Below are positions 33,077-59,114 of a stretch of DNA of 64,000 bases, piece by piece. The number at the start of each line of letters is the position of its first letter. Positions within the stretch are counted from its first letter, which is position 1. The notes under the pieces were generated by a model. The model was given only the letters and a program-made list of their open reading frames with translations. It ran no database searches and was not told the DNA's origin. The DNA comes from Sphingomonas vulcanisoli (GTDB taxonomy: Bacteria; Pseudomonadota; Alphaproteobacteria; Sphingomonadales; Sphingomonadaceae): positions 248,001-312,000 of the forward strand of contig NZ_JAAOZC010000004.1 in NCBI RefSeq assembly GCF_011761305.1, in the 5' to 3' direction. The translations under genes were made by a program, and so were the position numbers.

Positions 33077-34584
33077 GTTACCTGATTGCCCTGAAGGCTT
33101 CGTTCGTTGCGTCGGCTCCAGCTGACGCAACGAACGTGATCGGCCGGGTGGAGAGTCTGAAGACCGGCGCGTTCTGGAACCGGCTTGGTACGCGGTTCCT
33201 GCCGTTCGCCGACGCGGCGACCAAAGACCTGCCGCTGTCGCGCATCCTGCGGCTGTCGCTGTTCCAGATATCGGTCGGGATGGCGGCGGTGCTGCTGCAG
33301 GGCACGCTCAACCGCGTGATGATCGTCGAGCTTGGCATGTCTGCAAGCCTGGTCGCTGCGATGGTGTCGCTGCCATTGTTATTCGCGCCCCTGCGCGCGT
33401 TGATCGGTTTCAAGTCGGACCATCATACCTCGCTGCTCGGCTGGAAGCGCGTGCCGTACATCTGGTTCGGCACGCTGATGCAATTCGGCGGACTGGCGAT
33501 TCTCCCCTTCGCGCTGCTGGTGATGACCGGCGGCGGCACCGGCCCCGCATTTGTCGGGCAATTCGGCGCGGTTTTCGGCTTCCTGCTGGTGGGCGCCGGC
33601 ATGCACATGACGCAAACCGCGGGGCTCGCCCTCGCCACCGATCTCGCGCCCGAGCATGCCCGCCCGCGTGTCGTCGCGTTGCTCTACGTGATGCTGCTGA
33701 TCGGCATGCTGGTCAGCTCGATCGTGATCGGCAGGCTGCTGGTCGACTTCACTCCGACCAAGCTGGTGCAGATCGTTCAGGGTGTCGCCGCGCTGACGAT
33801 GGTCCTCAACATCGTCGCCTTGTGGAAGCAGGAAGCGCGCAACCGTACGGCCACCGCCCGGCGCGCAACTCCGATATTTCGTGAGGTCTGGGCGGCATTC
33901 ATCGCGCGTCCGCGGACGATACGCCTGCTGGTCGCGGTCGGGCTCGGCGCCGCCGCATTCAGCACCCACGACGTTCTGCTCGAACCCTATGGCGGGCAGG
34001 TGCTCGGCCTCGGGGTCGGCGCCACCACTCTTCTCACCGCGGCGTGGGCTGCGGGAATGCTGGTCGGGTTCGCGCTCGCCGCGAGGCGCCTCGCCGATCA
34101 TGGCGAACCGCTTCGCCTGGCCGGGTTCGGTGCGACGATCGGCATCGTCGCCTTCCTGGCGGTGATCTTCGCCGGGCCGCTGGGATCACCGGCGATGCTC
34201 GGCATCGGCGCAACCGCGATCGGATTGGGCAACGGCCTCTTTTCGGTCGGCACGCTGATCGCCGCGATGGCGATCACCGACGATGCGAGCCTGGACGGTC
34301 GAACCGGTCTCGCGCTCGGCGCGTGGGGCGCGGTGCAGGCGAGCGCCGCCGGCGCCGCGATCGGGATCGGCGTGTTCATCCGTGATATCGTCTCCACCGC
34401 TGCGGTCGCTCATAACCTCGGCCCGACGCTGGCCGGCCCCGACGCCGGCTATGCCGTAGTGTACATTCTCGAAATCGTGTTGCTGATCGGCACGCTCGTC
34501 GCACTCGGGCCGCTGGTCCAGAGCAGCCGCGCCGATGTGATCTCGTCCAACACGCGGTTCAGTTTCCAGGAATTTCCGATATGA
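33073..34584 (+). CDS. lhaA: LH1 assembly protein LhaA (PucC family)
   Basis: A 503-residue, 12-helix BCD-family membrane protein needed for light-harvesting 1 assembly, located between bchM and puhA as in Rhodobacter. Features are GTRFLPFADAATKDLPLSRI, LLQGTLNRVMIVELGMSASL and FKSDHHTSLLGWKRVPYIWF. The first 30 or so residues are longer than I expect for the family and include a 13-bp inverted repeat (33101-33136), so translation may start downstream, for example at the GTG near 33148. It is paralogous to the transporter at 19484-20800. Confidence 0.95.
   Translation: MSYLIALKASFVASAPADATNVIGRVESLKTGAFWNRLGTRFLPFADAATKDLPLSRILRLSLFQISVGMAAVLLQGTLNRVMIVELGMSASLVAAMVSLPLLFAPLRALIGFKSDHHTSLLGWKRVPYIWFGTLMQFGGLAILPFALLVMTGGGTGPAFVGQFGAVFGFLLVGAGMHMTQTAGLALATDLAPEHARPRVVALLYVMLLIGMLVSSIVIGRLLVDFTPTKLVQIVQGVAALTMVLNIVALWKQEARNRTATARRATPIFREVWAAFIARPRTIRLLVAVGLGAAAFSTHDVLLEPYGGQVLGLGVGATTLLTAAWAAGMLVGFALAARRLADHGEPLRLAGFGATIGIVAFLAVIFAGPLGSPAMLGIGATAIGLGNGLFSVGTLIAAMAITDDASLDGRTGLALGAWGAVQASAAGAAIGIGVFIRDIVSTAAVAHNLGPTLAGPDAGYAVVYILEIVLLIGTLVALGPLVQSSRADVISSNTRFSFQEFPI
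33101..33136. repeat. 13-bp perfect inverted repeat at the bchM-lhaA junction
   Basis: CGTTCGTTGCGTC (33101-33113) and its exact reverse complement (33124-33136) flank a 10-base spacer. The structure lies 25 bases downstream of the bchM stop, within the first codons assigned to lhaA. As RNA it would form a stable hairpin just after the lhaA start, able to limit translation, mark an RNA-processing point or attenuate transcription. It may also be the scar of a small palindromic element. Confidence 0.75.
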
Positions 34585-46258: not shown

Positions 46259-46310
46259 GGCATCTCTCCGTTCCCCGACAGGCGCCGGAGATCGTTGCTT
46301 TCAGGGTATC

Positions 46311-46347
46311 GGGTGGACGGCGCCGGCCTTTCCGGCCCCGTCCACCC
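46311..46347 (-). ncRNA. pufA-pufL intercistronic stem-loop
   Basis: GGGTGGACGG (46311-46320) pairs perfectly with CCGTCCACCC (46338-46347), and the enclosed bases form a further stem GCCGG/CCGGC around a short loop. It starts 21 bases downstream of the pufA stop and lies ahead of pufL. In Rhodobacter a comparable hairpin protects the pufBA message from 3' decay and raises antenna over reaction-centre expression. The same role is inferred here. Confidence 0.8.
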
Positions 46348-46367
46348 GCAATCGCGAGTCCTTGCGA

Positions 46368-55425: not shown

Positions 55426-55575
55426 TCACCCTGCGGCGTCGTCTTCGGGAGGCTTACGCGCCTTGTCCTTGGCGATCTCGCGGTTGATCGAGATGAGCTG
55501 CCAGATGCAGAACAGGACGACAGGGATGCCCGCGATCGCCATGTCGAACAGGCTGAAATAGCTCGCGTGCATCAT
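55426..55575 (-). CDS. 49-aa single-pass membrane protein downstream of bchO
   Basis: A 49-residue protein with a short N-terminus (MMHASYFSLFDM), one membrane helix (AIAGIPVVLFCIWQLI, about residues 13-28) and a charged tail NREIAKDKARKPPEDDAAG. Start codons ATG at 55575 or 55572 follow GGGAGAAGG, a strong ribosome-binding site, and overlap the bchO stop (ATGATG containing TGA). It ends five bases from the convergent crtC stop. The coupling to bchO and good Shine-Dalgarno support it as a real gene. I do not know a named family; a small subunit or anchor acting with pigment enzymes is only a guess. Confidence 0.75.
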   Translation of the reverse strand: MMHASYFSLFDMAIAGIPVVLFCIWQLISINREIAKDKARKPPEDDAAG

Positions 55576-56447
55576 CCTTCTCCCGCGAAATCGCGGATGA
55601 CAGCCGCGATATCCTCCGGCTTTTCCTCGTGCGCCAGATGGCCCAACCCCGCCAGCGAGATCAATCGCGCACCACTTACCATCGCCGCCGCCTCACGCGC
55701 GTTCGCCAGCGGTATCGCCGCATCGGCTTCGCCGTGAACGAGCAGCAGCCGCGCCTTTAGCCGGGGCAGGTCGCGCTTCAGCGACTCGAGATCCCAATCC
55801 GCCATCATCGTGATCGCACCGGCGCAATGGCCGGGCATCGAGAAGAGCCGCTCGTAACAGCGGCTCCCCGCCGCCTCGATCCGTGACCCCGTGCTGCGGG
55901 CCAGGAACCGCACGGTTTCACCTGGCACGCGCGCAAGCCGGGCGAAGAAATGCGGGGCGAAGGGATTGACGAACAGCAAGCGCGCCAGCGTCGGGAACAG
56001 CTTCGCGCCCAGGCCGGGAAAAGGCAGCAGCGCGGCATTGAGGCCGACGATCGCTTGCGGATCGGCAATGCCGTCAAGCGCCATGCGGATGGCGATGGCC
56101 GCCCCGGCCGAATGTCCGACGATGATGTCAGGCTTCATCTCCAGCGCGCGCAGCAGATCGCCCACCGCCCGCGCCATCGCCGACATGGAAAGGCCACCGG
56201 CGGGCCGACCGGCGGTAAAGGCATGTCCCGGAAGATCCGGCGCGACGACGGTGAAATGTTCGGCGAGCAGCGGCGCCAGCGCGCGCCAGCTATGCGTCGC
56301 CGCGCCGGTGCCATGGAGCAGAAGCATCACTGGACCCTGGCCCATGATTTGGACATGCCAGCGCAGCCGCCCGGCCTCAACGAAACGGCTCTGCGCACGA
56401 TTGGGCCAGTCGCGGCCTTCGCCATCCCAGCGCGGCATCCAGCTCAT
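55572..56447 (-). CDS. bchO: Alpha/beta hydrolase BchO (Mg-chelatase associated)
   Basis: A 291-residue alpha/beta hydrolase encoded with bchI and bchD. The nucleophile elbow is IVGHSAGAAIAI, the oxyanion strand VMLLLHGTGAATHSWRALAP, and a late AGLGHLAHEEKPEDIAA supplies the histidine. Its precise role in Mg-chelatase function is not established. It overlaps bchD by ATGA and the small membrane protein gene at its stop. Confidence 0.94.
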   Translation of the reverse strand: MSWMPRWDGEGRDWPNRAQSRFVEAGRLRWHVQIMGQGPVMLLLHGTGAATHSWRALAPLLAEHFTVVAPDLPGHAFTAGRPAGGLSMSAMARAVGDLLRALEMKPDIIVGHSAGAAIAIRMALDGIADPQAIVGLNAALLPFPGLGAKLFPTLARLLFVNPFAPHFFARLARVPGETVRFLARSTGSRIEAAGSRCYERLFSMPGHCAGAITMMADWDLESLKRDLPRLKARLLLVHGEADAAIPLANAREAAAMVSGARLISLAGLGHLAHEEKPEDIAAVIRDFAGEG

Positions 56448-58129
56448 GCCTGCTGGGCCTGGCGCACCGCGGCGTGCATCGCTGCGGCGTCGGCGCGCGG
56501 CAGCGGCAGATAGCGCGCGGCCATCGCGGCAGCGAGAGCGGCGGCTTCGGGCCGCGCGCGCGGGGAAATATCGACAAAGGCGGCGGCGATTCCCGCGGCG
56601 CGCATCGCCTTCGCCGCGGCGGTGGCATCGGCCTCGGCTACCTTCCGCACTGCGCTGCCGTCGGCGGCGATGTTGGCGCGCCCATCGGTGAGGATGACGA
56701 CGAACGGCGTTCGCCCGCGCGCTTTCGCCAGCTCGGCCAGTTCGCGGGCTGCGGTGAGCCCGGACGCCAGCGGCGTGCCGCCCCCGCCGGGCAGCTCCGC
56801 GAGCGAACGCCGGGCGCGCGCGAGCGAGCGCGTCGGCGGCAGGAGCAGTTCGGCGCCTGTCCCGCGAAACGCGATCAGCGCCACCTGCGCGCGCTTCACA
56901 TAGGCTTCGGCGAGCAGCAGCTCCACCGCTCCCTTGGCCTCGGCAAGACGCGCCAGCGCCGACGATCCCGACGCATCGACCGCGAAGATCGTCACCGCCT
57001 CCGCGCGCGTCTCGAAGCGCCGGATGCGCAGATCATCGCGGCGGACCTTCACGCGCGCGGTCCCGCTGCGCAGCTTCTGCCACGGTGCCGCGGCGCGCAG
57101 CGTATCGATCAGCGACAGCCGCACGCCACCGCCGGGGATTCCGGCGCGCGTTCCCATCGGACGCCCACGGGTGGGCGATTTGCGCCGTTCGCCGGCGCCC
57201 TGCGCGCGTGTCGTCTGCCGGCCACGCCCGGCAGCAATCCGGGCAAGGACATCTTTCGGCAATGCGGCCAAGGCAGCAGCGAGGACGATATCTTCGAGCG
57301 GGGCGGGTTCGCTGCGCTCGTCTTCGCCGCCATCGGTATCGGGGGGTGGGGGCGGCGGCGCTTCAGGCTGAGCTTCCTGCGGCGGCACCCGCGTGGCGCG
57401 GGGCGCCAAGACGAGCCGCGCGGCGAGGGTGATGTCTTCCTCATCGATGACGTCGCGCCCGGCGATCCGTGCCGACGCGCGGGCGGCGCGCAGGGCGAAA
57501 ACCGGCGCACGCGCCGAGTCTATTCCAAGCGCCAGGGCGGTCGCGGCCAGGGCATTGACCGCTTCCTCGTCACCCCGGACTTGTTCCGGGGTCCACCTCC
57601 CCACCTGCGCCGGTTTAGCGAGTTGCTCGGTGGACCCCGGAACAAGTCCGGGGTGACACATTGTCAGGTCGATCCAGAACGCCAGCCGCTCACCCATGGC
57701 CACCGGGGGCCGTTCGTCGGGCTCCACGCCGTCATCCAGCGCCACGACCAGAAATCGCGAATCGCCCCCATCGATCGCCGCCGCGATCCGGCCAGCGGTC
57801 GCGTCCGACAGCCGCTCGGCCATCGGCACCACGACGGCCCCGCCATCGGCTTCGGCTAGTACGCCCGTACTCGCCACCGGGCGGCCCAGGGCCAGCGTCG
57901 CGGTCAGGTCGATTCCGCCGAGCAGGCGCTCGTCATCGATATGCGCGGGGATGCGGCGGATCGGCGCGCCGTCCGGCAAGGAAGCGCGCAGCGCGGCGAT
58001 GACGGCGTCGCGCATATCGCCGCCGCCGCGCAGGATCAGGCCGCCCAGCCCGGGATCGATCGCGCAGAGCCGCGCGGCAAGGATCGCATCGGCGATAGGG
58101 TCGGGCGAGCCATCGCCCGGCTCGGTCAC
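56444..58129 (-). CDS. bchD: Magnesium chelatase subunit BchD
   Basis: The 561-residue BchD platform subunit of Mg-chelatase. It has an N-terminal AAA+-like domain (about residues 10-230), a Pro/acid-rich linker (QEAQPEAPPPPPPDTDGG) and a C-terminal von Willebrand A domain with the MIDAS motif AVDASGSSALARL and TDGRANIAADG. Residues about 158-187 (CHPGLVPGSTEQLAKPAQVG and onward) are encoded by a palindromic repeat inserted in frame. The gene overlaps bchI and bchO by ATGA-type junctions. Walker A of the AAA+ part is degenerate, as usual for BchD. Confidence 0.95.
   Translation of the reverse strand: MTEPGDGSPDPIADAILAARLCAIDPGLGGLILRGGGDMRDAVIAALRASLPDGAPIRRIPAHIDDERLLGGIDLTATLALGRPVASTGVLAEADGGAVVVPMAERLSDATAGRIAAAIDGGDSRFLVVALDDGVEPDERPPVAMGERLAFWIDLTMCHPGLVPGSTEQLAKPAQVGRWTPEQVRGDEEAVNALAATALALGIDSARAPVFALRAARASARIAGRDVIDEEDITLAARLVLAPRATRVPPQEAQPEAPPPPPPDTDGGEDERSEPAPLEDIVLAAALAALPKDVLARIAAGRGRQTTRAQGAGERRKSPTRGRPMGTRAGIPGGGVRLSLIDTLRAAAPWQKLRSGTARVKVRRDDLRIRRFETRAEAVTIFAVDASGSSALARLAEAKGAVELLLAEAYVKRAQVALIAFRGTGAELLLPPTRSLARARRSLAELPGGGGTPLASGLTAARELAELAKARGRTPFVVILTDGRANIAADGSAVRKVAEADATAAAKAMRAAGIAAAFVDISPRARPEAAALAAAMAARYLPLPRADAAAMHAAVRQAQQA
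57569..57657. repeat. Palindromic element inserted in frame within bchD
   Basis: Two perfect 29-base inverted arms (57569-57597 and 57629-57657) flank a 31-base centre. Each arm contains its own inner palindrome, CCCCGGA-CTTG-TTCCGGGG type. The encoded peptide CHPGLVPGS is the translation I associate with dispersed palindromic repeats of Sphingomonas genomes. The reading frame stays open across it, adding about 30 residues to the AAA+ domain. Confidence 0.85.
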
Positions 58130-59106
58130 GCCGCCAGGTCTTTCTTGGCCAGGTCCAACAGCGCGCGCTCGATCCGCGCGGTCGAGCCGGTCTCGTCGAG
58201 CACGTTGCGGCGCAGCCGGTGGCGCAGCGCGAGCGGGGCGACGCGGGTGATGTGCTGGGCCGCCACCTCCCCCGCCCCATCGAGCGCCGCCAGAGCGCGC
58301 GCCGAACGCATCAGCGTCAGCTCACCGCGCAGCCCGTCCGCACCGACCACCATGCACAACCGCGACGCGAGCATCAGGACCGCGTCGGGGACGGTGACGC
58401 CCGCGACCGCGGCCCGGGCGGCGGCGATGCGCTTGAGCGTCTTGCGCTCGGCGCGGCGCCACGTCTCGGCGAAAGCCTCGGGTTCGCGCTCGAACCTATC
58501 GCAGCGTTTGAGGATTTCGACCCGCTGCGCCAGATCCTGCGGCGTCCGCACCTCGACCGACAGGCCGAAGCGATCGAGCAGCTGCGGCCGCAGTTCCCCT
58601 TCCTCCGGGTTGCCGCTGCCGATCAGCACGAAACGCGCGGGGTGGCGGACGCTCAGCCCTTCGCGTTCGACGACATTCTCGCCCGAGGCCGCGACATCGA
58701 GCAGCAGATCGACGATATGATCCTCGAGCAGGTTGACCTCATCGATATAGAGGAACCCCCCGTTGGCCCGCGCGAGCAGGCCGGGTTCGAACGCTTTGAT
58801 CCCCGCGCCCAGCGCCCGTTCGAGATCGAGCGCCCCGACAACCCGATCTTCGGTCGCGCCGAGCGGCAGATCGACGAACGGCACCGGCACCGTCCCCTTG
58901 CGGGGGCTGCCGTCCTGATACCCCGCCTGCTCCGCCGGGACCGGCGGCAACAAGGCGGCGAGCGCGCGCACCGCGGTCGACTTGCCGGTGCCGCGATCGC
59001 CGAACACCATCACCCCGCCGATGCGGGGATCGACCGCCGCGATCAGCAGCGCCAGTTTCATCTCGTCCTGACCGACGATCGCGGAGAATGGGAAAGACAT
59101 GCGCAT
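58126..59106 (-). CDS. bchI: Magnesium chelatase AAA+ ATPase subunit BchI
   Basis: A 326-residue AAA+ ATPase driving Mg insertion with BchD and BchH. Walker A is VFGDRGTGKSTAVRAL (about 34-49), Walker B GGFLYIDEVNLLEDHIVDLL, and sensor region GSGNPEEGELRPQLLDRFGL. The start is ATG 59106 (AGG six bases upstream) or ATG 59100 (MSFPFSAIVGQ). It is first in bchI-bchD-bchO and is divergent from tspO copy 2 with a PpsR site between. Confidence 0.96.
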   Translation of the reverse strand: MRMSFPFSAIVGQDEMKLALLIAAVDPRIGGVMVFGDRGTGKSTAVRALAALLPPVPAEQAGYQDGSPRKGTVPVPFVDLPLGATEDRVVGALDLERALGAGIKAFEPGLLARANGGFLYIDEVNLLEDHIVDLLLDVAASGENVVEREGLSVRHPARFVLIGSGNPEEGELRPQLLDRFGLSVEVRTPQDLAQRVEILKRCDRFEREPEAFAETWRRAERKTLKRIAAARAAVAGVTVPDAVLMLASRLCMVVGADGLRGELTLMRSARALAALDGAGEVAAQHITRVAPLALRHRLRRNVLDETGSTARIERALLDLAKKDLAA

Positions 59107-59114
59107 CGCCAACC

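Follow-up and report, generated by a model that had tools for sequence, protein, structure and literature searches.

CGTC REPs, described by Di Nocera, De Gregorio and Rocco in 2013 (PMC3733652), carry a CGTC or TGTC tag of which variants are allowed, a stem of 8 bp, a loop of 5 nt and a CCA tail, with the 8-bp stem and 5-nt loop representing the family 2 pattern and the first two stem positions being almost invariably complementary A-T residues. They form head-to-head dimers with spacers of 20-100 bp, have mostly alphaproteobacterial hosts and are described there as having no association with transposase genes. The same account already lists REPs inside ORFs, as dimers or groups that encode 20-30 residues, suggests that such intragenic insertions may be neutral where the protein has a flexible linker or loop, and presents a single same-site example, found in recB of two Xanthomonas species; its main text mentions neither chelatase, bchD, ribD, riboflavin nor methylthiotransferase. 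Two other systems invite comparison. Rickettsia palindromic elements (RPEs; ~105-150 bp; PMC10969869, PMC2229807, PMC6649704) are likewise palindromic and lie in frame within conserved protein genes, as the repeat treated here does in bchD, ribD and mtaB; an RPE-bearing guanylate kinase was reported to be active with changed substrate affinity (PMC2229807), and RPE-6 and RPE-4 have been equated with CGTC-1 and CGTC-4 (PMC3733652). As described in those articles, and compared by description rather than by RPE sequence, RPEs and the bchD element are cousins that belong to different families, and Pfam and NCBIfam scans of BchD returned no RPE model. REPIN/RAYT systems, built on GTAG REPs, share with the bchD element the pair of inverted REPs as a unit, but differ in the tag and in the cognate RAYT gene that is expected in the genome, for which our search came back empty.

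To judge from its sequence, the bchD element is a new member of this known kind of repeat, a CGTC-type REP head-to-head dimer of 91 bp at 57568..57658 of the window (the whole stretch of DNA analysed, 64 kb), where it represents one of 30 distinct genomic elements. The earlier note had reported a perfect 29-bp inverted repeat at 57569-57657, and this holds: the arms, 57569-57597 and 57629-57657, are 100% complementary with 31 nt between them, and no other of the 22 inverted repeats listed across the 64 kb has fully complementary arms. Two other listed repeats, at 33101-33136 and 46310-46348 (17 nt, 94% complementary, 2-5 nt between arms), are possible terminators. The sequence and the 30-copy consensus place REP unit 1 on the plus strand at 57568..57595 (tag CGTC, stem ACCCCGGA / TCCGGGGT, loop CTTGT, tail CCA), and the sequence places an inverted unit 2 on the minus strand at 57631..57658 (tag TGTC; stem, loop and tail as in unit 1), separated by a 35-nt spacer at 57596..57630 that has diverged from the family consensus. 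The stem, ACCCCGGA/TCCGGGGT, and the loop, CTTGT, lie within the 8-9 bp and 4-5 nt of a CGTC REP, both units end in TCCGGGGT-CCA, and the outer tags agree as well, with CGTC at 27 of 30 left ends, TGTC at two and AGTC at one. The first stem pair of the window copy is A-T and the second C-G; in the family's other arm type, ATGCCGGA, both pairs are A-T. The dimer form was found in 30/30 collected elements, all of which were gathered by one arm type. Within the window the core 19-mer occurs twice (<=3 mismatches), versus a mean of 0.04 in shuffles, and the transcript of the element has a predicted fold of -75.9 kcal/mol (z -9.9). The combination of perfectly palindromic arms with a diverged spacer in this copy could reflect recent insertion, gene conversion or constraint on the arms.

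That the segment is a dispersed repeat, as the earlier note had supposed, rather than a sequence unique to bchD, is evident from the source genome (3.27 Mb), where a search with the 25-nt arm (<=3 mismatches) gave 39 matches, 21 of them exact, and the reversed control gave none. Merging partner arms, by hand for the copies L009, L013, L015 and L023, yields 30 distinct elements, a count to be read as at least 30 since a single arm type was used for collection and other copies, or singletons of other types, fall outside it. Their lengths are 88 bp (21), 91 bp (4), 87 bp (3), 89 bp (1) and 97 bp (1), equal to 1 modulo 3 in 26/30, and the family consensus runs CGTCACCCCGGACTTGTTCCGGGGTCCACC-spacer-GGGTGGATGCCGGAACAAGTCCGGCATGACG. 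Four of the six reading frames are usually open (+1 in 23, +2 in 25, -1 in 26 and -2 in 25 of the 30 elements, as against two each for +3 and -3), although the window copy has a stop in frame -1. Owing to the dyad symmetry and to lengths that are mostly 1 modulo 3, both orientations code for similar peptide pairs. A covariance model of the element matched 75 places in the source genome and 34 to 145 in six congeners, so that 7/7 genomes of the genus had matches; these counts cover both strands with many places doubled, are drawn from 150 scored candidates per genome, and may include other CGTC REP types.

The host gene, bchD (56444..58129, minus strand), encodes magnesium chelatase subunit D and overlaps by 4 nt both the downstream ORF at its stop (55572..56447, minus strand; by position presumably bchO) and bchI at its start (58126..59112, minus strand). 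As proposed earlier, the frame stays open across the repeat, and the protein matches NF009943 over residues 13-560. The whole element runs CGTC...GACA and codes for residues 158-188, CHPGLVPGSTEQLAKPAQVGRWTPEQVRGDE. The further claim that it adds about 30 residues did not survive comparison: across columns 152-191 the window protein has 40 residues versus a median of 34 (range 23-70) among 91 sphingomonad BchDs including the window, a net gain of 6, and a net insertion of 30 residues was therefore rejected in favor of an element that fills the length-variable linker connecting AAA+ core and lid. In an AlphaFold2 model (30 sequences, mean pLDDT 74.6, pTM 0.51) the core ends with a strand at 151-154 and the lid begins with a helix at 188-200; the element-encoded residues, 158-188, lie in the stretch that joins them, a predicted loop of low confidence (mean pLDDT 47 for residues 161-170 and 53 for 171-180). 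The closest structural match to this model is BchI (1g8p), and the lid, residues 184-254, matches BchI 266-336 by sequence. The low-confidence loop makes tolerance the best reading of the "tolerated surface insertion" of the earlier note, minus its roughly 30 added residues, whereas the word "domesticated", which would imply a function for the segment, finds no support. The earlier note had also called the subunit essential; this would hold for bacteriochlorophyll synthesis, not for viability.

Among orthologues the segment is mostly absent: 3/147 linkers stand out by arm similarity, namely the window (score 59), L156 of genome G207 (37) and Sphingomonas hylomeconis L032 (31), with the next at 19. 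The G207 linker carries a related CGTC subtype, and that of S. hylomeconis a decayed copy of 88 bp, whose score was reached by 0/5000 codon shuffles and 0/5000 base shuffles. The window and S. hylomeconis copies may descend from one shared ancestral insertion, but on the quick tree relatives without a recognisable copy fall between the two (supports 92 and 82). When the best ungapped inverted repeat was scored for each of 142 BchD genes, 14 reached >=13, 11 of them in the linker, and nine reached >=16, 9/9 in the linker, which makes up 6.7% of the gene; the three repeats of >=13 outside it (L095, L190, L155) lie in unrelated places. The binomial p of 4e-11 for this clustering takes genes as independent, uncorrected for kinship, so that six changes on the tree are the safer number. 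As a control, bchI, the paralogous gene at the same loci, was scored in the same way, by the best ungapped repeat per gene: 2/143 genes reached >=13, one with a CG-repeat run and, to judge by the left arms, neither REP-like, and the window's own bchI likewise lacks REP-like repeats. The BchD counts follow the removal of five duplicate genomes and leave out L057, L184 and L193, whose linkers were not covered; of the 77 family genomes that matched BchD, all but 7 were retrieved.

What is new here is the recurrence: one loop of one enzyme has received six REP-like families, to which the nine strongest repeats belong. The families come from different sphingomonads, and every one of them recurs elsewhere in the genome that carries it (sparsely in the case of family E). 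CGTC/TGTC tags mark family A, that of the window (39 own-genome pattern matches), family B in G138 (CHPRERGDP; 122 matches, some sites counted on both strands of a near-palindromic pattern) and family E in G207 (VTPALSRG; 9 loose matches, of which two are the bchD pair and three more have clear REP form, against one in the reversed control). Families without these tags are C, in several species of the genus g2 (3 to 79 matches per genome in nine genomes), D, in the MAG of L045 (SPAKAGVQ; 51 matches), and F, in G068 (PPPSSGEGDRRS; 14 matches). Depending on the species within one genus, family C yields RAKSRD, ERSRGT or SEVEGP, such that all three frames are used; what persists is therefore not the peptide. 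A quick tree of the 142 BchDs, built without the linker, requires at least six changes of the REP label, of which starred branches force five, and the sister sequences L140 and L144 differ in the REP that they carry; the 15 REP-labelled rows include the queried L032, L133 and L136, plus L180 with a repeat score of only 11. In the linkers of L179 and L180, which are compound, another repeat seems to interrupt one arm of a family C palindrome, which suggests nested insertion. Separately, L099, from a record titled Bordetella parapertussis MAG, has a BchD that groups closely with those of Comamonadaceae MAGs, and by sequence its name looks wrong. Compared with the single same-site case, recB, given for CGTC REPs in PMC3733652, the BchD linker took six families, and searches of an open-licence library on intragenic palindromes, REPs and BchD linkers listed nothing on recurrent insertion in bchD.

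Nor is bchD alone as a host gene. The earlier note had treated an intragenic copy as exceptional, a view contradicted both by the intragenic CGTC REPs already published (PMC3733652) and by two further in-frame copies, so that at least 3/30 own elements lie in frame within conserved genes. In ribD (TIGR00326; L013:1163-2305, equal to G000:C3:218343-219485, minus strand) the element forms residues 260-289, inside the reductase domain (Pfam RibD_C), and in mtaB, the tRNA methylthiotransferase gene (TIGR01579; L005:307-1653, equal to G000:C2:131990-133336), residues 398-427, near the C-terminus. All three copies read HPGLVPGS...W[TM]PEQ; a rule of one preferred frame was dropped, as the G207 copy reads as another peptide. 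The ribD site holds a diverged copy of the dimer family in G003 (covariance model E 4e-19) and other repeat-like inserts, judged by eye, in G004, G002, G001 and G005, and is empty, at the family's usual length, in G006, while the mtaB site has other palindrome-like inserts in G005 and G003 (by eye) and is empty in G001, G002 and G004. Ten long frames across own copies, picked from a longer list whose unscanned frames had low codon scores, were scanned with Pfam; besides mtaB and ribD they gave no match or a domain wholly to one side of the element, and we read these elements as intergenic. Since the codon model is a simple one, trained on 30 window ORFs, three intragenic copies are a lower bound.

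We consider it very probable that the segment is a non-autonomous, selfish CGTC-type REP dimer that landed in the core-lid linker of BchD and was kept through tolerance. Two inverted copies of a short hairpin plus spacer, 88 or 91 bp long in 25/30 elements, would have landed in the linker, where, with four of six frames usually open and dyad symmetry, the insertion could be read as ~30 harmless residues in either orientation. Tolerance would come from the nature of the linker, an unstructured hinge whose length varies, and the same filter, tolerance by a flexible loop, would account for the other REP families kept at the BchD site in other sphingomonads and for the dimers kept in RibD and MtaB. 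Selfish palindromes may thus persist wherever a flexible loop accepts any peptide with an open frame, and BchD presumably still functions. A search of the source genome through PF01797 found no RAYT: the sole Y1 protein found there has a score of 148.6 for IS200, and its RAYT score of 43.3 falls short of the cut-off of 80, so that RAYT as mobiliser is unsupported. This protein corresponds to a single IS200/IS605-type transposase gene near a contig end (G000:C10:495-851). Y1 matches were absent from 5/6 congeners and partial, with a stop, in the sixth, and no enzyme that moves the dimer was identified in the source genome.

A loose loop may not be enough to account for the site, because the length of a second linker, the Pro-rich one that follows the lid (residues 245-275), is variable too, at 25 to 52 residues, yet it showed no strong inverted repeat of REP kind in the BchD gene survey. 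With no REP-like repeat found in this linker, and the arms of the window copy perfect despite a diverged spacer, site preference, gene conversion or hairpin constraint still have a place beside tolerance. We think it unlikely, though worth stating, that conserved enzymes of sphingomonads possess fixed "ports" (the core-lid hinge of BchD, a place in the RibD reductase domain and the MtaB C-terminal region) that recurrently capture different palindrome families, with site choice going beyond loop flexibility via REP-attracting DNA or the swapping of a resident REP. For BchD itself, steering of REPs by a feature of the target DNA or by recombination with a resident REP, rather than survival alone, is a doubtful explanation: six families at one site, the compound repeats in L179 and L180 and the nine strongest repeats within one 6.7% stretch would all fit it, but repeat starts are scattered 19-66 nt after ERLAF (114 in one compound case) in three phases, and the printed 8-nt flanks have no common sequence.

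Co-option, in which the mRNA hairpin or the peptide tunes bchD expression or BchI-BchD assembly under selection, appears somewhat more doubtful still. Perfect arms around a diverged spacer, a predicted RNA hairpin of great stability, recurrence at one site and the lack of a REP-like repeat in the other variable linker could all be expected under it; against it, the site is occupied by different families, and by one family in all three frames, most of the 142 genes have no strong repeat there, and the S. hylomeconis copy has decayed. The bacteriochlorophyll pathway is dispensable for growth, and a repeat that has entered one of its genes could in principle have broken bchD and left the locus decaying, which we regard as very improbable given 561 open codons with coding-like scores on either side of the element, 4-nt overlaps with bchI and the downstream ORF, and recognisable lid and VWA domains. 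Hardly credible, finally, is an old, native BchD segment that merely resembles the repeat, for instance via its WTPEQVR stretch, since the W-[TS]-x-x-[EDQ] stretches in some orthologue linkers (such as L096, PRWTGEDVRDAR) stand against two perfect 29-nt arms, 30 genomic copies and the absence of the segment from most orthologues.

Tolerance of a selfish palindrome, our preferred reading, has consequences beyond this locus. REPs are named as extragenic, yet here they write ~30 residues into conserved enzymes, and BchD offers a natural series, six repeat families at one site and one family in three frames, with which one can test whether palindromes inside genes are simply tolerated or are steered and used. 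For annotation there is a warning: where predicted proteins of sphingomonads show a segment of the "HPGLVPGS...WTPEQVRGD" type, it stems from repeat DNA and is no conserved domain. The source genome also holds a second REP-like family, TACCCCGGCGnAGGCCGGGG, with nine matches (<=3 mismatches) on contigs C1, C2 and C3, which is akin to family D of L045.
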